A stretch of DNA of 27,499 bases from a virus, in the IMG/VR virus record IMGVR_UViG_3300035698_006915, positions 1 to 27,499 of that record, one strand, 5' to 3'. Shown in pieces: positions 349 through 20,098 of the stretch. A model generated the notes under the pieces. That model worked only from the letters and a program-made list of their open reading frames with translations. It was not told the origin of the DNA and did no database searches. How positions within the stretch are numbered: the first letter of the stretch is position 1; every line of letters begins with the position of its first letter. The translations under genes were made by a program, and so were the position numbers.

Positions 349-540
349 ATGAAAGAGAAAGAGTTAGTAATAATAGCCAATCAAGAGATAAAGCGTAGAA
401 TAGACATAGCTATAGCAGGTAATGATTGCATGATCAGTAGACCTTGCCTCAGATGTGATGAGGATCGCATATCCTGGTCTAACACATTCTTCTGTATAGA
501 TTGTACTAAGAAGATTGGAGAGATGAGGGTGTGGACTTGA
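349..540 (+). CDS. Small zinc-ribbon-like protein (63 aa)
   Basis: A 63-residue charged protein with two cysteine pairs, C33-x2-C36 and C49-x2-C52, separated by twelve residues. This spacing is that of a short zinc ribbon, which in small phage proteins often serves protein or nucleic-acid binding. A further cysteine lies at residue 27. It is the first gene of the rightward accessory run. The ATG is preceded only by a weak GGA at about seven bases; the better GGGAG at 321-325 is too far away. Its TGA overlaps the next small gene. The function is not recognised; zinc binding is inferred from cysteine spacing alone. Confidence 0.62.
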   Translation: MKEKELVIIANQEIKRRIDIAIAGNDCMISRPCLRCDEDRISWSNTFFCIDCTKKIGEMRVWT

Positions 541-623
541 GTAACGCAGACAAGGGGGTCTCTAGGGAAGAGATGCTTAGTATAAAGAAGCTAGTCTGGA
601 CTAACATGCAAGGAATAAACTAA
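531..623 (+). CDS. Tiny ORF (30 aa) linking two coupled genes
   Basis: A 30-codon frame from GTG at 531 (or TTG at 537, 28 codons) to a TAA at 621-623. It overlaps the end of the zinc-ribbon gene, and its stop shares one base with the next ATG (TAATG at 621-625). A GGAG at 517-520 sits about ten bases before the GTG. The peptide includes the segment SREEMLSIKKLVW. The seamless overlaps at both ends are the main reason to believe it is translated: without it the 83-base gap before 623 would be the only break in a tightly coupled run. It has no recognisable domain and could be a chance frame. Confidence 0.4.
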   Translation: MDLSNADKGVSREEMLSIKKLVWTNMQGIN

Positions 624-886
624 TGAAAGTAACAAGTAAGACAGAGTTAGTCTCTAGCGAGAGAAGACAGCCCTGGAACCCCAGGCACGTCGCACAGGAT
701 TTGCTCAGTAACGTGAACTACCGTTGCTCGTCTAAAGAGTTTAAACGTATAGCGTATCTTATACTGGAGGCTTATGATAATGAATGTACGATCTACACTG
801 AAAGAAATATGAACTCTGCTTATACTCATGTAAAAATAGAGCATCGTTATTATGCATACAAATGCGCGGTATTAATAGGACAATGA
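623..886 (+). CDS. MKVTSKTE-family small protein 1 (87 aa)
   Basis: First member of a tandem family of small proteins that share the N-terminal peptide MKVTSKTEL. The body of 87 residues is mixed charged and aromatic, with segments such as EFKRIAYLILEAYDNE, predicted by eye as helix then strand. No catalytic motif, signal peptide or membrane segment is visible. The ATG overlaps the stop of the preceding tiny frame (TAATG), and its own end overlaps the next gene as ATGA. There is no Shine-Dalgarno site, so translation probably depends on coupling. Location in an array of small fast-changing genes beside a divergent control region suggests an accessory or host-takeover role; this is inference only. 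Confidence 0.7.
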   Translation: MKVTSKTELVSSERRQPWNPRHVAQDLLSNVNYRCSSKEFKRIAYLILEAYDNECTIYTERNMNSAYTHVKIEHRYYAYKCAVLIGQ

Positions 887-1146
887 AAGTAACAAGTAAG
901 ATAACAATTCAAAGCCACAGTGCTAATGATCTCAAGATAGACATCATGAATACTAAGACACCTCAGGAGCTCAACTCCCTCATTGAGTCATACGATGGAG
1001 ACCTAGTCTTAAAAGTAGAGCCAATAGGCCTGAGTGGCGTTAGGTTCGACGCGTTTGCTACTATAATAGAGAACGGTGATAAGGTTAAGACTATAGCTAG
1101 ACATACATCTCCTATGGGGGAGTATAAATGGCAGGAGTTCGCATAA
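883..1146 (+). CDS. MKVTSKTE-family small protein 2 (87 aa)
   Basis: Begins MKVTSKITIQ; its first 18 bases are identical to those of the gene at 623. The start at 883 is chosen over an upstream in-frame ATG at 862 because it gives the family N terminus and an ATGA overlap with the preceding stop. The region NTKTPQELNSLIES followed by a short strand is clearly shared with the gene at 1704 (KTKTGDELGMLVRT), so the two are homologous beyond the N terminus. The stop shares one base with the next ATG. Function is unknown; the fold looks like a small alpha/beta domain. Confidence 0.72.
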   Translation: MKVTSKITIQSHSANDLKIDIMNTKTPQELNSLIESYDGDLVLKVEPIGLSGVRFDAFATIIENGDKVKTIARHTSPMGEYKWQEFA

Positions 1147-1442
1147 TGAAGGTAACCAGTGTGACAGAGATAGAAGACGACTACTATCTCAATGTAATGT
1201 CGGATGCAGTCTTTAATCTAATATTCAAGAACGGAGGTGCTTTTACTATGGCTGAGTACTACGAGCTGCTTACGAAGATCGGTGATATCTACAATGACAA
1301 CTGTCAGATTGAAACCAGGAGAAGAGGCTATGGTCTTTGTGATATGACTCTAGTAGTCTCCTATGGTCTTTGTGATATGACTCTAGTAGTCTCCTATCGT
1401 GGCAACAAGACTAGTTATTCAATAGTAGTGATATTAAAGTAA
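1146..1442 (+). CDS. MKVTSKTE-family small protein 3 (98 aa) with internal duplication
   Basis: Begins MKVTSVTEIE. The start at 1146 is preferred over an in-frame ATG at 1128 because it gives the family N terminus and the TAATG overlap. Near the C terminus an 11-residue unit, YGLCDMTLVVS, occurs twice in a row because of a perfect 33-bp tandem repeat in the DNA. The last two codons before the stop appear to be a readthrough extension: changing one base (T1434 to G) would restore a TGA stop here and an ATG start for the next frame. So both the duplication and the 3' end look recent. No known domain is visible. Confidence 0.68.
   Translation: MKVTSVTEIEDDYYLNVMSDAVFNLIFKNGGAFTMAEYYELLTKIGDIYNDNCQIETRRRGYGLCDMTLVVSYGLCDMTLVVSYRGNKTSYSIVVILK
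1328..1393 (+). repeat. Perfect 33-bp tandem duplication
   Basis: Two identical 33-base copies lie head to tail at 1328-1360 and 1361-1393, followed by the first four bases of a third (CTAT). The length is a multiple of three, so the reading frame of the host gene is kept and 11 residues are doubled. Complete identity at synonymous positions implies a recent event, or an assembly error to be checked. Confidence 0.93.
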
Positions 1443-1657
1443 CGCTGATTAGTGAGTTTGACAATAGCCCCTATATTATAGAGAAGTATATGTCTAGTTA
1501 TAAGATAGACTCCACTGATCCTTACTTTAATATACTTCATAATGAGATCTGCGGTTTGATAGATGATAGCTTCATTGGTTACCTGGATGACGTAACGTAT
1601 GATAAGGACTTTAATATAGAGCAGCCATTTAATATTAGAATAGAGTATCCAGTCTAA
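1433..1657 (+). pseudogene. MKVTSKTE-family small protein 4 with ATT in place of ATG
   Basis: A 74-codon open frame running to TAA at 1655-1657. Its first codons read IKVTLISEF, which lines up with MKVTSKTEL of the neighbours, but the initiator is ATT (1433-1435). No ATG, GTG or TTG occurs between the nearest upstream in-frame stop (1412-1414) and this point; the first in-frame ATG is at 1490 and would give 55 residues. The frame is otherwise intact and contains typical family text (YIIEKYMSSYK, GYLDDVTYD). Either the gene starts at the rare ATT codon, or at 1490, or it has been silenced by one point mutation. Length and composition match the family. Confidence 0.6.
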
Positions 1658-1703
1658 AAGCCTTGGTACATTAAAACGTTTACGTACAATAAGGGAAAAT
1701 GCA

Positions 1704-2003
1704 TTGAAAGTAAGTAACATCCTAAAGATACAGTACTATGATCCAGATGACCTTATGGAGGACCTGAAGAAGACTAAGACAGGTGACGAACTAGGTATGC
1801 TAGTTAGAACTGTTAACGCTAACACCTCGAGAAACGGCGGGCTATCTATCACTATGCCTGACGGAGATGGTACCTCAGGTGGTCCATACTCAGACGTAAG
1901 AGTATATGAAGACGATGTATACTATGCAAGCGTTCTTTATGAGTACAACAATTGGTATGATCCTCATGGATACGAAAAACAAAGAATAAACTGGCATAAG
2001 TAA
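1704..2003 (+). CDS. MKVTSKTE-family small protein 5 (99 aa, TTG start)
   Basis: Starts at TTG (1704), giving MKVSNILKIQ; no ATG is available in frame, and an AAGGG at 1691-1695 serves as a plausible ribosome site. The segment DPDDLMEDLKKTKTGDELGMLV matches ANDLKIDIMNTKTPQELNSLI of the gene at 883, so family membership rests on more than the N terminus. The C-terminal half is rich in Tyr, Trp and Asp. A 46-base gap upstream follows the ATT-start frame, the longest spacer inside the array. Its stop overlaps the next ATG (TAATG). The function is unknown. Confidence 0.7.
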   Translation: MKVSNILKIQYYDPDDLMEDLKKTKTGDELGMLVRTVNANTSRNGGLSITMPDGDGTSGGPYSDVRVYEDDVYYASVLYEYNNWYDPHGYEKQRINWHK

Positions 2004-2287
2004 TGAGAGTAACAAGTAAGACAGAGCTCGTTGATGATTTCGTTAATGACTATCATCATCATAGGGCAGAGGTAATTAAGAACTCTGCACTCGTAGCTAG
2101 ATCAATAGAGGACCTTCACGCTCTCCAGCAGAGCGTCTCTGAGCACGAAGACGATATCGTGATAGATATTACGGAAAATTATATAGTGGACCACAAACGA
2201 CGTGGCAGAGCGTTTGGCGCTAAAGTAGACATCATACACAATGTAGGATCAGTCTTCTGCATCAGAACAATAACAGTAGCATTTTAA
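2003..2287 (+). CDS. MKVTSKTE-family small protein 6 (94 aa)
   Basis: Begins MRVTSKTELV; the first 24 bases differ from those of the gene at 623 at one position only, although the rest of the two proteins diverges. This is the clearest case of N-terminal conservation against a variable body. The segment SIEDLHALQQSVSEHEDD followed by a strand resembles TPQELNSLIESYDGD in the gene at 883. A basic patch, DHKRRGRAFG, lies near residue 70. The ATG overlaps the preceding stop as TAATG. No catalytic motif is visible; function unknown. Confidence 0.72.
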   Translation: MRVTSKTELVDDFVNDYHHHRAEVIKNSALVARSIEDLHALQQSVSEHEDDIVIDITENYIVDHKRRGRAFGAKVDIIHNVGSVFCIRTITVAF

Positions 2288-2288
2288 T

Positions 2289-2522
2289 ATGAAAGTAACA
2301 GCAACAGAAATAGAATTCGAAGAAGAGATCTTATTTACCCAAGGCTATGTGCAATTGGATATGACAAATGGTGACCTCTCAGTATACGACGGTAAGCAAT
2401 GGGATACGACTAATGTAAATGCTGATAACGTAATTACTATAAAAACTACAGAAATTACCAGCTCACCTCAGTACACAGCAACTTGGGCCTATGGTGATTC
2501 GATAACTTGGACTAGTACGTAA
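2289..2522 (+). CDS. MKVTSKTE-family small protein 7 (77 aa)
   Basis: Begins MKVTATEIEF, keeping the MKVT start and the acidic follow-up of the family. The first 12 bases match the genes at 623 and 883. The body is acidic and Thr-rich with alternating polar and hydrophobic residues, suggesting a small beta domain. It starts one base after the previous stop. It ends the array; a 75-base gap with a TATAAT follows, so the accessory run probably stops here. Function unknown. Confidence 0.68.
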   Translation: MKVTATEIEFEEEILFTQGYVQLDMTNGDLSVYDGKQWDTTNVNADNVITIKTTEITSSPQYTATWAYGDSITWTST

Positions 2523-2597: not shown

Positions 2598-5111
2598 ATG
2601 ACCTTTCAAGTTACATACTGGCAATCTCAGCATAATGATCGCTCAGGATTAGTTGGAGGTCCGCCAACTTTAGAAGTACCGGGCTTCCTCGGGAACTCTA
2701 TAGATCTAGAGACTATTACCTCCCCTGGTAGGGGTGACGGTAAGTTATACGTATTCTCTAAGCACTATACCTCTGTTGATAGTTTCTCTGGTTACACACA
2801 GCTCGATCAGCTAGATCTTGCTATCCTTAATAAGACTTCTCCAGAGAGAATGTTATTTGCTCCTGCGGCTAGCAATAGTCAGACTATCCTTAATGGTAGC
2901 CATCATTACTCCTCTGTTGATGGAGTAGAGTGGTCTAACGGAGTGTCTCCTGAGTTCACAGAGATATATGGTAACAGTAATAAGGCTACACTATCAGATG
3001 GCTCTTTTTACATTATAACCGGTCACGGGGAATCTCATGGGTTTTGGATCAGACGTGAGTTCAGTGAGAACTACGCCTTAACAGGAGCAGGCTTTGCTAC
3101 CTTTGCAGTATCAACTCCTTCAATAGGTTTCAGTGGTGACCAGGATGAAAGTCCTAGGCCTTCAGGTGAAGGAACGGGAGAAGACGGAACGGGAGACCTG
3201 TTCGCAGCTCCAGAACCTCCTGACTATACCATACCTGTTGAGGGTGACTGCGACATAATCGTTGACGGTAGTGATCTTACTATATCATTCTTTAATGACT
3301 TCACTAGGTCCCCTAATATAACAGAGGGCAACTGGGCTGCTCAAGGCTTTGGAATGGGTGGATGGTCCGATGCTGAGCTTCAAGAGCTAGTCGACAATAG
3401 CGGCGGCAACCCAATAGGTATACAGCGCAATGAGATCAATCTTATATCTCAAGCTATAAATATGGCTGTCAGAGACAAGCCTTACTATACTGTCATTGTT
3501 ACTGGAGCGAATGCAGAATATCAGACTCTTCAGGTTCCTATTTCCTACGGTGATGACTGGCTATGGGATAGCGTTGCCGATGAACTTGGTCCTGTAAAGA
3601 TAGGCATCAAGGGTAACGGAGGTAACGTCAAATGCATGGATGCAGCCATAAATGCTTCTCCAGCCTCAAGAATAGCTAATAATAAACCAGAGATATACGA
3701 CTCTACTCATAATAATCCTAAGCAACCAGAAGGAGGCAGGAGGGCATATGCTGACCCTATATCTGGAGCACCAACGCATCTAGTATCGCACGGCTTTAGC
3801 ATTACATATGTAGGTCTTGATACAGGGGCACAGATGTCATATCCTGTTCATGGCCCTAACGCCAGTAAGATATATGATCCTTTAGCCTTCTACTCTTCTG
3901 TTAACGAATTAGACGACCCGGACCCAAGTGACAGGAGTCAAGCTCCCTGTAATTACGTAGAACTGTTTAACATGAAGCTTCGTCCCGCTCTATATGGCGG
4001 CGACGTTCAATACTTCTATATGGTAGGTCATATACAAGGACATATGTATGTAGAAGGTTGCGAGTTTATGCCTATGGACTTAGGTGCAGATGGAGCTACC
4101 GAATACCATAAGAGAGGTCCCAAAGAAGATCCTCCTTTCCAGTATATATATGCTGATGCAAAATCATGCATGAGGTTCAATCACCAGGTATTTGGAGACA
4201 CAGTACTTAAAGGTAATGGAACTAGTAGAGATTTTCCTGCAGCCGCACAACTAGCCACATACACTGGAGCAACAGACCTTGTTACTTGCCACGAGCATAT
4301 GTACTATATTAAAGATGGTGGTAGCCTATGGATTCTCGATCATGGTATAGAGAATAGCCCATTCTATGTAGTGACTACTGACCGCACAATGTTCCAGGTC
4401 CGTCCCGAGAAGGCAGATATTACGGACGAGGAAGAAGAAAAATACTCAGGCCAAAGTCCTGATACCAACTGGGGTTATGGAAGAAACGGAGATATTGTCA
4501 TAAAGAATAATTATCTCTCTGGACATGGAACACAATTATTTACCAGTGAAGGAATTCACCCCGAGGCAGATGGCTTTGACGGAGGAGGTGCAAACTTAAC
4601 TGTATGGAGAAATACTACAGGTAGTACTTACTTCTATGACAATAATTGTATTGATGCATACTACAATTGCTTAGCAGCTGTAGCTCAGGCTCAAGACAGG
4701 AATATGTTCAATACAGAGCATGGATATCCTATGGATATAGTATACCTAAGAGGCAACACTCTTACTAGCACAGCTGATACAAGTAGAGAGACAGTTACTC
4801 TAGTAGGCATGCATCGCCTGCATATACTATCAGGCAATAGCGTATCTAATGCTGGTGGCAAGGAAACCTCATTCGGAGATTCTACATCGTTCCAGCCAGA
4901 TGGATTCAAAGGACCCTTTGGAGGCGGCATAAATGGTATCACAGATCTACTTATTGAACACGAAGGAGTTAACTTTAGTGGAGACTTTGGACCCCAGGCT
5001 AGGTACGTTGAGTATGCCGCTGGAACAGGAGTGCTAGGTGTTTATGTTGACATAGATATGAGCGATCCAAGCGGAAGTTTAGAGGGGATTGTCCCCTGGC
5101 TAAAAGTTTAA
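2598..5111 (+). CDS. Probable tail fibre/tailspike with beta-helix region (837 aa)
   Basis: An 837-residue Gly-, Asn- and Asp-rich protein with no signal peptide or membrane segment. Residues 1-175 form an N-terminal beta-rich part, residues 180-210 a low-complexity acidic and proline linker, and the remainder is beta-strand rich. In the C-terminal third, turns such as DIVIKNNYLSGHG, LTVWRNTTGS, IVYLRGNTLTST and LHILSGNSVSN recur, the pattern of a parallel beta-helix like that of phage tailspikes and pectate-lyase-fold proteins. This supports a receptor-binding or surface-glycan-degrading virion protein, though no catalytic residues could be assigned. The ATG is the first start after an in-frame stop at 2586 and lacks a Shine-Dalgarno site. 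It stands well away from the tail genes, upstream of the packaging module. Confidence 0.55.
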   Translation: MTFQVTYWQSQHNDRSGLVGGPPTLEVPGFLGNSIDLETITSPGRGDGKLYVFSKHYTSVDSFSGYTQLDQLDLAILNKTSPERMLFAPAASNSQTILNGSHHYSSVDGVEWSNGVSPEFTEIYGNSNKATLSDGSFYIITGHGESHGFWIRREFSENYALTGAGFATFAVSTPSIGFSGDQDESPRPSGEGTGEDGTGDLFAAPEPPDYTIPVEGDCDIIVDGSDLTISFFNDFTRSPNITEGNWAAQGFGMGGWSDAELQELVDNSGGNPIGIQRNEINLISQAINMAVRDKPYYTVIVTGANAEYQTLQVPISYGDDWLWDSVADELGPVKIGIKGNGGNVKCMDAAINASPASRIANNKPEIYDSTHNNPKQPEGGRRAYADPISGAPTHLVSHGFSITYVGLDTGAQMSYPVHGPNASKIYDPLAFYSSVNELDDPDPSDRSQAPCNYVELFNMKLRPALYGGDVQYFYMVGHIQGHMYVEGCEFMPMDLGADGATEYHKRGPKEDPPFQYIYADAKSCMRFNHQVFGDTVLKGNGTSRDFPAAAQLATYTGATDLVTCHEHMYYIKDGGSLWILDHGIENSPFYVVTTDRTMFQVRPEKADITDEEEEKYSGQSPDTNWGYGRNGDIVIKNNYLSGHGTQLFTSEGIHPEADGFDGGGANLTVWRNTTGSTYFYDNNCIDAYYNCLAAVAQAQDRNMFNTEHGYPMDIVYLRGNTLTSTADTSRETVTLVGMHRLHILSGNSVSNAGGKETSFGDSTSFQPDGFKGPFGGGINGITDLLIEHEGVNFSGDFGPQARYVEYAAGTGVLGVYVDIDMSDPSGSLEGIVPWLKV

Positions 5112-5127
5112 CAATTAATATACCCCT

Positions 5128-5343
5128 ATGACAGATTTTTTAACAGTTATCTGGCAGTGCGATAAAAAGAACTGCAAACAAGATAATCTTCGCGTATTAG
5201 AAGTAGGGTCAACAATTATAGATGATGAGTGCGAACATTGTAAGAAACTCATTAGAGAACCAATCTGGTTTGAAATAGAACTAGATAATAAGAAAATAGA
5301 CGAATTATATGGAAACAGTAAAAGAGACGGACAGCAAGGTTAA
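5128..5343 (+). CDS. Small zinc-ribbon-like protein (71 aa)
   Basis: A 71-residue charged protein with C11-x4-C16 and C35-x2-C38, a likely four-cysteine zinc site on a short beta-rich body, ending in a basic tail. Such single-domain ribbons in phages often bind DNA, RNA or a host enzyme, but nothing here tells which. It starts 16 bases after the fibre gene without a Shine-Dalgarno site and its 3' end overlaps the following frame if that gene begins at 5309. It opens the group of small genes between the fibre and the nuclease fusion. Confidence 0.58.
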   Translation: MTDFLTVIWQCDKKNCKQDNLRVLEVGSTIIDDECEHCKKLIREPIWFEIELDNKKIDELYGNSKRDGQQG

Positions 5344-6357: not shown

Positions 6358-7111
6358 TATCTTTGATATGCCTGCTCCCGATTTAACGGGGCCTGCTAAG
6401 GAAAAGAAACCTAAAAGAACCACTAAGGCTCTACAGGTTACTGATGAGAACAAAGAGTTAGTCGAGAAAGCTAAAGAAGCTGGTATGCCTATTACCAGTG
6501 CAAACACAGTTGATATACTTACTAAGTTTGTTGAAAGGCAGAAGTACGGTCACCAAGGCGCTATAGCTATGACATGTAAGGGTACTAAGTGTAGTTACCT
6601 GTCTATGTGTCCGATACATGAAGCAGAAGAGAAGCTTCCTGTAGGTAAGCGGTGCCCTGTAGAGAATATACTTATAGAGATGTGGGCTTCTAAGTTTATA
6701 GCCGCTCTCAATATAGATATCTCAGATCCAGAGTATGCCATCGATATGGATATGGTATACGAGCTAGCTGGACTAGAGCTCATAAGAAACAGGGCAGCGT
6801 GTAAGCTATCCGATGAGCCTGATATATTCACTAGCAAAGCTGTAGCATTCTCTCCTCAGGGAGCTACAATCTATGATGACAAGCCAAACATGGCTTTACT
6901 TATACTTGAGCGCTACGGTAAGAGAGTTGACAAGTTGAGAGAGCAACTTATAGCTACTAGATCTGCTCAGGCTAAGATCGGTAAGATATCTGGCGATAGT
7001 TCAGTTAGAGCTGCTAACCTTGCACTTAGAGCTAAACAGATTCTTGAGAAGAGAATGAACCATGGATCCATTGAAGACGTAGAGTTTGAAGTAACAGATC
7101 CTAATGAGTAA
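6332..7111 (+). CDS. Cysteine-cluster protein before the nuclease fusion (259 aa)
   Basis: A soluble 259-residue protein with a basic, Pro/Lys-rich N-terminal tail (to about residue 35) and a cysteine cluster C82-x4-C87-x5-C93-x14-C108, seen as CKGTKCSYLSMCP and GKRCPVE. Four cysteines in this order would bind zinc or an iron-sulphur cluster. The C-terminal half is helical, with a basic last helix (LALRAKQILEKRM). I have a general memory of similar Cys-rich proteins near packaging genes of large phages, but cannot place it in a named family; a small-terminase-like role is possible by position and size. It overlaps the next gene by eight bases. Confidence 0.62.
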   Translation: MEDGKDTPDIFDMPAPDLTGPAKEKKPKRTTKALQVTDENKELVEKAKEAGMPITSANTVDILTKFVERQKYGHQGAIAMTCKGTKCSYLSMCPIHEAEEKLPVGKRCPVENILIEMWASKFIAALNIDISDPEYAIDMDMVYELAGLELIRNRAACKLSDEPDIFTSKAVAFSPQGATIYDDKPNMALLILERYGKRVDKLREQLIATRSAQAKIGKISGDSSVRAANLALRAKQILEKRMNHGSIEDVEFEVTDPNE

Positions 7112-8789
7112 CATCTTCTTTGACCTTGAAACTACTGGACTCGGTAAAGAGTCTGGTAAGACTTTCGCTAATGAGATAGGTATATTTAACCTAGCTTATT
7201 CTCAGTCTGGAGGTCAAATATCTACTCTATATGGAACATCTAATGTTCCTTTTGAAGAAGGTAAGTTCATGAAGAATCTTCAGAGAATAAACAAGGCGGG
7301 TATCCTCCGTGCCACTAAGGATAACAGAACAGAGAAGGATATACTTACTAAGTTTGTAGGCAGCCTAAACGAGGGAGATACTCTTGTTGGCTGGAACAGT
7401 TTCGCATTTGACTCTCCTGTGCTAACCCAGAGACTAAGAGACCTGGGACTTAAGAGCGAGGCTACCAAGGTCGCAAGTATGACTCATATTGATATGATGC
7501 ATAAAGTAAAAGGTCACATGGATAGGTTACTCTCGGACTATGGCGATGAATCTCCCTGGCATTTCGGACCAGGAGTTACTCCTAAGGGAATGACTCAAGA
7601 AGCTATAGCTGCTGGGTTAGATATTAATGTTAAAGCTGCTCACATGGGAGGAGATGACGTAAGAGTATTAAAAGAGATATCAGGGCATGCACAAGACTAT
7701 GAGACATTTAAAAAAAGATTCACACCAAATTTAAGAAAGTGGGCAAGGCATGTCGATAACCAAAGAAGACAAGAGTCTCCTAACTCTAAGTACGCTTCTT
7801 ACGAACAGTTCTTCAGTTCCAAGCAAGGCAACATAGCGAGAAGTCAGAGTTCAGCAAATAAAATTAGTCAGTCTTCCTACGTAAGAAGTTCCTCTGAGAT
7901 AGACCAGCTAAACTGGAACAGAGCAGGAGTTGAAGCTGCAGGGGAGGACATCTCTAAGGTCGCTGCTTCTGCTGCGACAGAGGCTAGCGAAGGATTCATG
8001 AAAGGCTTAAACGAGCTAGGTACTGTTAAGAACGCAGGTATACTTGCGGGAGTAACTGTTGGAGCTATAGCCGTAAGCAATATTAAGAAGTACTTTCAGG
8101 ACAAGGGAGACGAGGTTCCACAGAATCTAAGGATAAGTGCTCGTGAACTTGGCAAGCCTATGTACGAGATAGTAAATGACTTGAAAGTAGCTGGCACAAC
8201 AGAGAGATTAAACAAGCAGCTAAAAGCACAGTACCATACAATGGGCGCTGGTACTATTATAGGTAGACAAGTAGAAGAAGAAATGTCTGAGCTTCCTAAC
8301 TTTGTAGGTGCGGAAGTGGAACTTGAAGACAGGTTCCTTGGAGTCAAAGGCTTTGCTGATACGGTTATGAACATCGAAGGTGAAGATAGGCCAATAGAGC
8401 TTAAGACTATAGATGATGCAGACTTTGATAAGCTTACTGGGCCTAAAGCATCGCACGCAATGCAGGCTAACTTCTATACTCATGCACTGGGAGCTGAGAT
8501 GGGATATGTAATGTATATCTCACGTGAAGACCCTAGCAAGCGCGTTACTTTTGATGTTCCATATGATCCAGGCTCATTGATAGCTGCAGTAGAAAAGTAT
8601 AGAGGAGCTGTTCATCAGGCTGGGCAGTCAGGTGGATACAGCACTGCTTTAGAATATTTTTTCGGAAATAAGTCAGGCACAAGAGATCAGACTAATAGAA
8701 GCTATCTAACTGGTCCAGGCTACAAAAGAACACCTAATGATCCTAACAACTCTCACGTTGGATCAAGAAACATACCGAGGAACTACTAA
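7104..8789 (+). CDS. DnaQ-like DEDDh exonuclease fused to RecB/Cas4-like PD-(D/E)XK nuclease (561 aa)
   Basis: Two nuclease domains in one chain. Residues 1-200 carry the DEDDh 3'-5' exonuclease motifs: D7-L-E9-T-T-G (Exo I), N98-SFAF-D103 (Exo II) and H180 with D185 (Exo III, spacing HxxxxD). A Ser/Gln-rich linker follows, then a hydrophobic stretch at about 300-316 (ILAGVTVGAIAV). Residues 370-480 fit a RecB/Cas4-like PD-(D/E)XK core: D409, E422-L-K424 and the Q444-x3-Y448 motif typical of that superfamily. The usual upstream motif I histidine is not obvious. Known members of these families trim DNA ends; here the pairing suggests processing of viral or host DNA. It sits before three hydrophobic proteins and upstream of TerL, so a virion-associated or membrane-linked role is conceivable. 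Nuclease assignment is confident; role is inference. Confidence 0.85.
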   Translation: MSNIFFDLETTGLGKESGKTFANEIGIFNLAYSQSGGQISTLYGTSNVPFEEGKFMKNLQRINKAGILRATKDNRTEKDILTKFVGSLNEGDTLVGWNSFAFDSPVLTQRLRDLGLKSEATKVASMTHIDMMHKVKGHMDRLLSDYGDESPWHFGPGVTPKGMTQEAIAAGLDINVKAAHMGGDDVRVLKEISGHAQDYETFKKRFTPNLRKWARHVDNQRRQESPNSKYASYEQFFSSKQGNIARSQSSANKISQSSYVRSSSEIDQLNWNRAGVEAAGEDISKVAASAATEASEGFMKGLNELGTVKNAGILAGVTVGAIAVSNIKKYFQDKGDEVPQNLRISARELGKPMYEIVNDLKVAGTTERLNKQLKAQYHTMGAGTIIGRQVEEEMSELPNFVGAEVELEDRFLGVKGFADTVMNIEGEDRPIELKTIDDADFDKLTGPKASHAMQANFYTHALGAEMGYVMYISREDPSKRVTFDVPYDPGSLIAAVEKYRGAVHQAGQSGGYSTALEYFFGNKSGTRDQTNRSYLTGPGYKRTPNDPNNSHVGSRNIPRNY

Positions 8790-11237: not shown

Positions 11238-12257
11238 ATGAACAACGTAGAAAAAGAAGTTCTCTCTTTAATGAAAGAGGGATTGGGCAGAAGAAGAATT
11301 GCTGAGGTGCTAGGCATAACTCAGTGGAGTGCTAGACAAATCATAAAGAGGCTACTAGGAAAGAAAGAAGCAGTCTCTAAAACTAAGGCATCACCATCGG
11401 GACCTACTAAGAAGATAAAGAAACAAAATGCTCCTAGGAGTAGAAGCAAGAAACAAGAGAAGACAGTAGTAGAGGTTCAGTCAGTAGGTGTTCAATCAGA
11501 CATGGATTCTGATATACTAACTAGAAGTCCAAATGGCAAGGCTATAGTTTTATCTGATATTCATTTGCCTTATCACGATCACAACGCTCTCCGTATCGCT
11601 CTCGAGTATATGGATGACTGTCAGCCTGATACAATAGTATTGAACGGCGACATAGCAGACTTCTACGGAGTCTCTGCTTACACGAAGACAAAGAAAGACT
11701 CAATGGACTATCAGCAAGAACTTGATGTAGTCAGAGAGTGGCTAGAGGATCTTGTTGCTAGATTCCCCAAGTCTGATATCTATTACATAGAAGGAAACCA
11801 CGAGACTAGAGCAAAGAGAACCTTAGCTAATAACGCTCCTGACTATTCTTCAATGAGAGACATGAGAGTTAACGTTCAGCTTAAGCTTGACTCGCTAGGC
11901 ATAACATGGATCCCTGAAAGTCAACAGCTTAAGATAGGCGACCTTATGTTTATTCATGGTCACAAAGTTAGAAAACATGCAGGTACGACAGCTAGAGCTC
12001 ACTTCGAAGACTACGGCTGCTCTATCATTGTTGGCCATGTTCACAGGCTATCTGTAGCATACAAAAGAAATAAGTTTGGTAATCACGCTATGATAGAGAA
12101 CGGTACTCTATGCGACATAGACGTTGAATACGTGAAGTATCCAGACTGGCAACACGGATTCACCGAAGTAAATTTTGATGGTAACGACTTCTCTATAGTG
12201 CAGCATGCGATAAAAGATTACAAGCTGGTAACTGCGGACAAAGTCTACGTTCTATAA
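11238..12257 (+). CDS. Helix-turn-helix protein fused to a metallophosphoesterase (339 aa)
   Basis: Residues 1-40 form a helix-turn-helix of the homeodomain-like kind (EGLGRRRIAEVLGITQWSAR). A Lys/Ser-rich linker (45-75) leads to a calcineurin-type metallophosphoesterase with the complete metal-binding set: D107-I-H109, G137-D138, G186-N187-H188-E189, H240-G-H242 and G266-H267-V-H269. Such enzymes hydrolyse phosphomono- or diesters with two metal ions; some act on nucleic acids. The DNA-binding domain and the one-base overlap with terL (TAATG) suggest that it works on DNA with the packaging motor, perhaps filling part of the small-terminase role, but it could equally be a regulator or nuclease. 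Domain calls are firm, the role is inferred. Confidence 0.88.
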   Translation: MNNVEKEVLSLMKEGLGRRRIAEVLGITQWSARQIIKRLLGKKEAVSKTKASPSGPTKKIKKQNAPRSRSKKQEKTVVEVQSVGVQSDMDSDILTRSPNGKAIVLSDIHLPYHDHNALRIALEYMDDCQPDTIVLNGDIADFYGVSAYTKTKKDSMDYQQELDVVREWLEDLVARFPKSDIYYIEGNHETRAKRTLANNAPDYSSMRDMRVNVQLKLDSLGITWIPESQQLKIGDLMFIHGHKVRKHAGTTARAHFEDYGCSIIVGHVHRLSVAYKRNKFGNHAMIENGTLCDIDVEYVKYPDWQHGFTEVNFDGNDFSIVQHAIKDYKLVTADKVYVL

Positions 12258-18366: not shown

Positions 18367-18528
18367 ATGACTAATAAACACAAGGACTTAGAGTCCGAGG
18401 AATATGAAAGTGTTGAAGAATTACAGCACAAGGATAAGGTTAAGATTCGAAGATTGAAGAATACTCGCGAGTCAAAAACTTCTAAATCAAGAAATAAGCC
18501 CAAAACAAAAACAGATGACAAATCCTAA
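18367..18528 (+). CDS. Small highly charged protein (53 aa)
   Basis: A 53-residue protein with an acidic N-terminal half (DLESEEYESVEEL) and a strongly basic C-terminal half rich in Lys, Arg and Ser. The ATG has a good ribosome site, AGGA at 18358-18361, five bases upstream, and the frame overlaps the protease start by 14 bases, matching the tight packing of the module. Its place between portal and protease suggests an assembly factor or internal head protein; similar small basic proteins bind packaged DNA. The function is unknown. It is easily missed because of its length. Confidence 0.62.
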   Translation: MTNKHKDLESEEYESVEELQHKDKVKIRRLKNTRESKTSKSRNKPKTKTDDKS

Positions 18529-20098
18529 GTTTCGAATCATAGACAACTTAAATGTTAACTTTAAGTCACTTAGACCTGATGCATTGGATTTATTCTCTGA
18601 CGCTATAGAGGTTAACAAGAAGCCTATCCTGTCAGTGGATATAGATGCTACTCACTCCGGAAGACTCACTAACATGAGAGTTTATCCAGGAGCAAGAGTA
18701 AAGAGATCAATGAAGACATTTTTAGAACCGGTTGGGAAGCCGGTTTTAAAGCATCACGACATGCGCTCTGACCCAATAGGTAGAGTTACTGATGCTAAGT
18801 TCATTCAACTAAAAACAGGCGATGATTTTAAGTATGATTATCGTAATCCAACGAAAGATACAGGCTCTGGCTTTATTCAGCTAGGACTCAATATCATGGA
18901 GCAAGATGCTATAGAGCAATTCGTTGATGGAAGAATTCAACAGTTCTCTACAAGTCAAGACTTCCAAGATGTATTCTGCTCCGTATGCGGAAAGAACATT
19001 GCAGACGAAATGTCTATGTTCTGGAATGAGCATGAGCATAAAGTTGGAGAAACTTACAAAGTAAAAGTTGGCAAGAAGTCACAAGACTTCCTATGCTACC
19101 TAATCACAGGCGACCTTAATTATGTTGAGGTATCGCCTGTTAACATTCCAGCTGACGAGCACACTAAAGTCAATGGCTTTAAGTTTATCGAACCAGCATC
19201 GGACAGTGGCATAGGAACGATGGAATGCTTTAGCGATTCTGTTGCCTCTGTCGCATCAATGACTCTCTCTGTCGGATCTGACTCAGTAGTAGACCTCTTT
19301 GCAGGTAACTACGATTCAGCTAAAGACAGAAAAACCCTTACCGGAAAAACAATAGTAGCTGTATCTCCACTGTTTACAGACTTACTACAAGATCATCAAC
19401 AGGAAGAAGATATGAAAACTGAACAAGATAAGTCCGATAAGGACGAAACCAAAGAAACAACTGATGCAATCGCGGCCAGCGATACATCGGAAGATAACTC
19501 AGACAACGACGGCAGTAGCAAGGAAGAGGAAGGTGTCGTAGCCCCTGTGACCGAAGCTAAAGTTGAAGATAAGAGTGATCAAAGTGGCTTGAGCGATACG
19601 GCTCTTACTGTTTCATTAGAAGCAGTTACCGTTCAACTCGAAACACTTAAAACTGAGAAGGCGGAAGCTGACTCAAAAATTGATCGTCTTGAAGCTAAGA
19701 TTGCTGAAAGAGATGAAGAAATTGATAAGGCGAAGACCGCCGCAACAGACAGCCTGACAGAGACGAAGGCTGCACTAGCAGGTCAACTACTTACCTCTAG
19801 ACTTATTCTTAAGAAGCAAGACGTTACTTCTATTAAATCTAAAGACGAATACGAAGCAAAGATAGTAAGCTTTACTGAAAGGAAGATTGAGTCCCTCAAA
19901 GATTCAATCTCTGATCTATCTGTTGAAGTAGCGGAAGCTATGTCAACGATGGGTGTAAAGACCTCTGCTGATTTTGCAGCTGACTCGATCGAAGATGACG
20001 TAACGAGTGTTGCCACTGACAGTAAAAAGCCAGTAGTAGCGCCCAAGCCTCAATCAAAAGACGAAAGCATCACATCATACTTTAATGAAAACAATTAA
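18515..20098 (+). CDS. Prohead maturation protease fused to scaffold domain (527 aa)
   Basis: Residues 1-230 fit the head maturation protease fold: the His motif KHHDMRSDPIGRV (H80/H81), the serine region QQFSTSQDF (S145 or S147) and VEVSPVNIPAD near 203-213, which matches the E-x-S-x-V-x-x-P-A signature of HK97-type proteases. Inside the domain is a C155-x2-C158 knuckle with H173, H175 and C194, a probable zinc-binding insertion known from relatives. Residues about 295-527 are acidic and coiled coil (SLEAVTVQLETLKTEKAEAD), the usual scaffold. The protease cuts scaffold and capsid proteins during maturation. Start 18515 overlaps the preceding small gene; the scaffold part has an internal start at 19412. 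Confidence 0.9.
   Translation: MTNPKFRIIDNLNVNFKSLRPDALDLFSDAIEVNKKPILSVDIDATHSGRLTNMRVYPGARVKRSMKTFLEPVGKPVLKHHDMRSDPIGRVTDAKFIQLKTGDDFKYDYRNPTKDTGSGFIQLGLNIMEQDAIEQFVDGRIQQFSTSQDFQDVFCSVCGKNIADEMSMFWNEHEHKVGETYKVKVGKKSQDFLCYLITGDLNYVEVSPVNIPADEHTKVNGFKFIEPASDSGIGTMECFSDSVASVASMTLSVGSDSVVDLFAGNYDSAKDRKTLTGKTIVAVSPLFTDLLQDHQQEEDMKTEQDKSDKDETKETTDAIAASDTSEDNSDNDGSSKEEEGVVAPVTEAKVEDKSDQSGLSDTALTVSLEAVTVQLETLKTEKAEADSKIDRLEAKIAERDEEIDKAKTAATDSLTETKAALAGQLLTSRLILKKQDVTSIKSKDEYEAKIVSFTERKIESLKDSISDLSVEVAEAMSTMGVKTSADFAADSIEDDVTSVATDSKKPVVAPKPQSKDESITSYFNENN
19412..20098 (+). CDS. Likely nested scaffold protein (228 aa) from internal start
   Basis: An in-frame ATG (Met300 of the protease-scaffold polyprotein) is preceded by AGGAAG at 19401-19406, five bases upstream, a better ribosome site than that of the full-length gene. 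It starts just before the acidic, coiled-coil scaffold half and leaves out the protease. Lambda C/Nu3 and related systems make a free scaffold from such nested starts. The product would be mostly Asp/Glu/Lys helix, ending with SYFNENN. The reading is from sequence only; whether the start is used is not shown. Confidence 0.62.
   Translation: MKTEQDKSDKDETKETTDAIAASDTSEDNSDNDGSSKEEEGVVAPVTEAKVEDKSDQSGLSDTALTVSLEAVTVQLETLKTEKAEADSKIDRLEAKIAERDEEIDKAKTAATDSLTETKAALAGQLLTSRLILKKQDVTSIKSKDEYEAKIVSFTERKIESLKDSISDLSVEVAEAMSTMGVKTSADFAADSIEDDVTSVATDSKKPVVAPKPQSKDESITSYFNENN

Follow-up and report, generated by a model that had tools for sequence, protein, structure and literature searches.

Seven small open reading frames (ORFs), which follow one another on one strand of a viral DNA fragment, begin with nearly the same residues and then continue as dissimilar proteins. 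The question raised by this locus is what kind of genes these are, and what keeps their starts alike. The explanation considered best is an accessory-gene array that arose by tandem duplication and leader-anchored recombination, with a probability of about 0.5.

The window, i.e. the whole stretch of DNA analysed, comprises 27,499 bases and is equal to the entire IMG/VR record IMGVR_UViG_3300035698_006915, so a search of the whole assembly adds nothing; this record is a fragment. It is a fragment from a large uncultured phage of the tailed type, and the terminase, the portal, a prohead protease-scaffold fusion and the major capsid protein are encoded in the window. The nearest annotated phages, on the basis of terminase identity, were Moorella phage MTATph1 (33%) and Bacillus phage KLEB27-3 (31%), and closer uncultured relatives (L016–L022) showed capsid protein identities of 58–94%. 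At position 80 a gene begins on the minus strand, preceded by AGGAGG, and this places the array near the head of the rightward gene run; beyond the array this run continues with a probable virion gene and then the head genes. The array itself comprises seven small ORFs of 74–99 codons each, at positions 623–2522 of the plus strand. The features of this region, together with the protease gene, are the following.

349..540, plus strand: ORF of 63 amino acids with a CxxC...CxxC zinc-ribbon-like pattern, opening the rightward unit.
537..623, plus strand: ORF of 28 amino acids (u28) with a TTG start, linked to the 63-residue ORF by a TTGA overlap and to g1 by a TAATG overlap.
609..646, plus strand: repeated 5' block of g1, CAAGGAATAAACT plus the 24-nt leader.
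623..886, plus strand: g1, 87 amino acids, MKVTSKTELV; Shine-Dalgarno site AAGGA; start overlapping the stop of the upstream 28-residue ORF (TAATG).
883..1146, plus strand: g2, 87 amino acids, MKVTSKITIQ; ATGA overlap with g1; closest body, g5.
1146..1442, plus strand: g3, 98 amino acids, MKVTSVTEIE; Shine-Dalgarno site AGGAG; TAATG overlap with g2; 33-bp tandem duplication at 1328–1393.
1433..1657, plus strand: g4, 74 amino acids from ATT, IKVTLISEFD; body unalignable with the others.
1704..2003, plus strand: g5, 99 amino acids, TTG start, MKVSNILKIQ; Shine-Dalgarno site AAGGGA; body related to that of g2.
1980..2026, plus strand: partner block of g6, CAAAGAATAAACT, a short insert and the leader.
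2003..2287, plus strand: g6, 94 amino acids, MRVTSKTELV; TAATG overlap with g5; g1-like leader DNA (23/24) and upstream sequence (12/13).
2289..2522, plus strand: g7, 77 amino acids, MKVTATEIEF, leader one codon shorter; body unalignable with the others.
2598..5111, plus strand: probable virion or adhesin protein of 837 amino acids, 75 nt after the array, without family match.
18515..20098, plus strand: fusion of a prohead protease with a coiled-coil scaffold, aligned by hhalign (probability 99.4%) to the annotated prohead protease gp014 of KLEB27-3.

The order of the portal, protease and capsid genes is the same as in KLEB27-3, and the protease-scaffold fusion suggests that the head of this phage matures by proteolysis. 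The linker of this fusion is variable except for a conserved (K/E)EGVVAP motif, which could be a self-cleavage site. At 7104–8789 a protein of 561 amino acids combines a DnaQ-like exonuclease N terminus with a Cas4-like nuclease domain (phrog_1706, residues 378–481), of which relative G003 encodes a version of 421 residues. A metallophosphoesterase with an apparent N-terminal helix-turn-helix is located directly before the terminase (11238–12257), and homologues with a similar start occupy the same place in G003, G004, G006 and G007. The slot at 2598–5111 is filled by proteins of 199 amino acids in G003, about 112 in G006 and 2378 in G007, and is a probable hypervariable virion or adhesin locus.

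All seven ORFs look coding, and in each of them its own frame was favoured by codon usage, by a small margin in g1 and g4. The starts of g2 (883) and g3 (1146) are internal to mechanically delimited ORFs beginning at 862 and 1128. The g4 leader has no ATG, GTG or TTG, and the first in-frame ATG, at 1490, is the start of the mechanical ORF; the g4 start is a rare or decayed one. ATGA or TAATG overlaps join u28/g1, g1/g2, g2/g3 and g5/g6, while the other junctions are a 10-base overlap (g3/g4), a gap of 1 base (g6/g7) and one of 46 bases ahead of g5; similar stop/start overlaps are also common across the rest of the phage. Six of the seven predicted proteins are acidic (pI 4.1–5.9), and g1 has a pI of 9.1. 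The 33-bp duplication within g3 is exact and in frame (11 residues), and suggests ongoing change of the array. The sequence-only reading of this DNA, seven tandem small genes with a common N terminus, was thus borne out, with the reservations that the resemblance is weak at 1704, that the leader at 2289 is one codon shorter and that the copy at 1433 reads from ATT.

The common N terminus may be written MKVTSxTE-h. It is close in the copies at 623, 883, 1146 and 2003 and weak in the TTG-started copy at 1704. All seven copies have a hydrophobic residue at position 9, provided that g7 is aligned with its one-codon gap. At the DNA level, the identities reported from the sequence alone were both confirmed: the copies at 623 and 883 have the stretch ATGAAAGTAACAAGTAAG in common (18/18), and those at 623 and 2003 differ in one of 24 bases. 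The 24-mer leader, with up to three mismatches, occurred twice in the window and not once in 100 dinucleotide shuffles, and GTAA is invariant at the 5' stretch of the seven copies. Over codons 2–8, copies that agree in a residue used the identical codon for it in 58 of 77 pairwise cases, against 30 expected from the codon usage of the phage (p about 0.0004). This excess falls to p = 0.016–0.035 when only one of g1, g2 and g6 is kept, and AAA and GTA tend to be preferred early in other genes of the phage too, so conservation at the DNA level is secure for the closest trio, g1/g2/g6, only. Part of the codon identity of the leader reflects a general A-rich 5' codon preference.

Upstream of the start, g1 and g6 match in 12 of 13 bases (repeat D4, p = 0.001), and this upstream conservation is confined to that pair. 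Their bodies gave no alignment (p = 0.93). As the leader and upstream sequence of g1 and g6 are alike and their bodies are not alignable, the leader seems to have been copied or swapped without the bodies.

The bodies are near saturation. The pair g2/g5 was significantly similar (pairwise score, p = 0.0015), g1/g2, g1/g3 and g2/g6 were marginal, and the remaining pairs were not significant. Of the body homology previously proposed among the copies at 883, 1704 and 2003, the link between 883 and 1704 therefore stands and that between 883 and 2003 is marginal (p = 0.045), whereas 1704 and 2003 are not similar pairwise (p = 0.53). The summed score of the seven bodies was significant against shuffles (p = 0.0085) and against size-matched real ORFs (p = 0.0043), and five of the bodies show weak collective similarity (p 0.004–0.03). 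By eye, five copies show a helix, an (S/T)xxE helix and then three strands. AlphaFold2 (AF2) models of g1 and g2 gave HH-EEE(E) with the leader unstructured, at a mean pLDDT of only 59 and 63; confidence was low before the domain (residues 1–17 in g1, 1–11 in g2), in models that are of low confidence throughout. The spacing between the leader and the first body element varies between copies.

The array was found in one genome only. Single array proteins and profiles had no match in PHROGs, Pfam, PADLOC (the models of which describe defence systems, not counter-defence) or PDB sequences, and no homologue was found by tblastn of the array proteins against INPHARED phages or in the IMG/VR and GTDB species contigs searched; such single-protein searches reach close relatives only and could miss distant homologues. 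Weak matches to SelB_WH1, tegument, HAMP and replication initiation families (E 0.02–0.23) were rejected as chance, and a Foldseek search with a model of low confidence returned nothing at E ≤ 0.001. A degenerate pattern of the leader DNA was present in ten contigs, where the matching frames, if any, start unrelated proteins of 147–762 amino acids. A profile search of the whole records of relatives revealed no array homologue. At the syntenic site, upstream of a small conserved gene (window position 5128), different genes and no array are present in G003, G006 and G007; absence is shown in this way for the more distant relatives only, since the contigs of the closest ones, L001, L016 and L017, do not extend over the left flank.

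Shared N termini were also scanned as pairs of ORFs that agree in five or more of the eight residues following the start. The array was recovered in the window, and the relatives yielded scattered pairs only, largely in antisense or repetitive frames. With at least six of eight residues, no comparable cluster appeared over the covered parts of the larger relatives (hits in G006 were mostly one gene in two overlapping loci), and the T4 stretch gave ipII/ipIII. Among the collections searched, the N terminus thus has no homologue in other viral genomes, while similarity between the bodies is collectively significant; of the two refuting findings named in the sequence-only reading, the first came out and the second did not.

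According to the preferred explanation, each unit would consist of a translation start, a conserved leader of nine residues (MKVTSxTE-h) and, behind it, a mini-domain of about 65–90 residues that diverges fast. The genes are read in one direction, most of them coupled by stop/start overlap, and the leader would be copied or exchanged between them independently of the bodies; a duplication with later exchange at the 5' block may have produced the g1/g6 pattern. Duplication with fast divergence, already proposed from the sequence alone, is supported by the tandem overlapping genes, the weakly homologous bodies, the common leader and the 33-bp duplication in g3. The g4 and g7 bodies, which are unalignable, count against the preferred explanation, as does the lack of a family match for a counter-defence role. 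T4-type mobile promoter cassettes likewise have repeated DNA at gene borders that is a possible anchor for the exchange of small ORFs; their repeats lie outside the coding region, whereas the array repeat is the coding start itself. Anti-CRISPR and other counter-defence clusters encode small, often acidic, fast-changing proteins. Unrelated genes in such clusters are not known to have a leader in common, and in the array no known regulator gene of that kind and no family match was seen.

The products would most likely be counter-defence or other host-directed accessory proteins, judging by analogy; they would be non-essential, and each copy may meet a different target, like T4 Ip1–3. An anti-defence or takeover role, as first suggested for these genes, is plausible by analogy with the T4 ip genes. 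The internal-protein (ip) loci of T4 (Tequatrovirus) are the nearest known analogue, and their products are injected inhibitors of restriction enzymes. Ip1–3 have nothing in common but a leader that directs packaging, and each blocks a different GmrSD enzyme (PMC12373910); this leader has 10–19 residues and is removed by proteolysis (PMC9026906). As in ipI, ipII and ipIII, the array genes are small, with a codon-identical short N-terminal leader and bodies unlike each other, and they are variable among related phages (PMC12373910, PMC9026906). Same-residue codons in the ipI/ipII/ipIII leader were identical in 17 of 17 cases, with 10.4 expected (p = 0.001, from NC_000866). A prohead protease is encoded both by T4 and by the array phage. 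On the other hand, neither the leader, with its different residues, nor the bodies of the array have sequence similarity to the T4 proteins, and no PHROG or Pfam match was found; the T4 proteins are basic (pI 8.9–9.5) and the array proteins mostly acidic; seven mostly overlapping genes lie together, instead of in two separate loci; and in the array, known from sequence alone, similarity between bodies remains detectable. A common leader before diverged bodies and a phage-encoded prohead protease are thus found, but sequence homology and basic character are not, and on these two grounds the array is kept apart from the Ip family. A mode of action similar to that of the T4 Ip system is plausible, at a tentative level.

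A sharper form of the preferred explanation, compatible with it, would make the leader a capsid-targeting propeptide: as with the T4 ip products, the proteins would enter the head through it, be cut there by the prohead protease behind Glu8 and be injected. This is an equally tentative reading. The short leader ahead of diverged small bodies at variable spacing, its low AF2 confidence before the domain, the protease-scaffold fusion and a codon-level signature equal to that of the ip genes are consistent with it, as are the length of the T4 leaders and the protease of another giant phage, which likewise cuts after Glu (PMC10052503). Against it, the acidic character of six proteins contrasts with the basic T4 Ips and the AF2 models are of low confidence throughout. 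Moreover, Glu8 is present in g1, g3, g4, g6 and, if gap-adjusted, g7, but missing in g2 and g5, with the cleavage consensus of the phage's own protease underivable. In phage P1, an N-terminal signal also takes antirestriction proteins into the head (DarB; PMC9024508), but the Dar proteins are large and unrelated, their signal is longer (30 residues) and they form no tandem short-leader array.

It is doubtful that the ORFs are plain paralogues, with the leader as the first beta strand of the fold, kept for structure and without separate function. The strand-like alternation of V3, S5, T7 and L/I/F9, with a hydrophobic residue at position 9 in every copy, agrees with such a strand, but protein constraint alone would not hold the third-codon positions in g1/g2/g6, AF2 leaves the leader outside the sheet (at low confidence), and a strand of the fold fits poorly with the varying distance to the body.

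An RNA-level element in the 5' stretch, either the start-region operator of a translational regulator or a downstream initiation enhancer by which the array would be co-regulated, is unlikely. The start codon and the first eight codons are the centre of the conservation, GTAA is invariant and synonymous identity exceeds expectation; nevertheless, upstream conservation is restricted to g1/g6, ordinary Shine-Dalgarno sites precede three copies, the motif is absent from the other genes of the phage, and the codon preference is in large part a feature of 5' ends in general. The related proposal that the conserved 5' sequence replaces missing Shine-Dalgarno sites was rejected as mostly unsupported, because five-base matches precede g1 (623, AAGGA), g3 (1146, AGGAG) and g5 (1704, TAAGG), so that such sites are lacking in the remaining copies only, most of these are stop-coupled, and a match is likewise missing from roughly half of the remaining genes in this phage, which makes the array not special in this respect.

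Under the accessory-array explanation, the leader may also route the array proteins into the head. The locus would then represent, outside the T4 group, a second and independently evolved system of a leader with variable cargo: a common nine-residue leader would bring seven small counter-defence proteins, most of them acidic, into the head of a large phage, and new cargo would come from duplication and leader-anchored recombination within one operon. Taken as a whole, this is rather unlikely. If the leader is a packaging signal, leader-fused genes in relatives would be recognisable as injected cargo, and it would provide a sequence handle on counter-defence proteins in little-known large phages. 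Even if it is a recombination anchor only, the array would represent a compact route to new small proteins, in which the start and leader are kept and the body is diversified.
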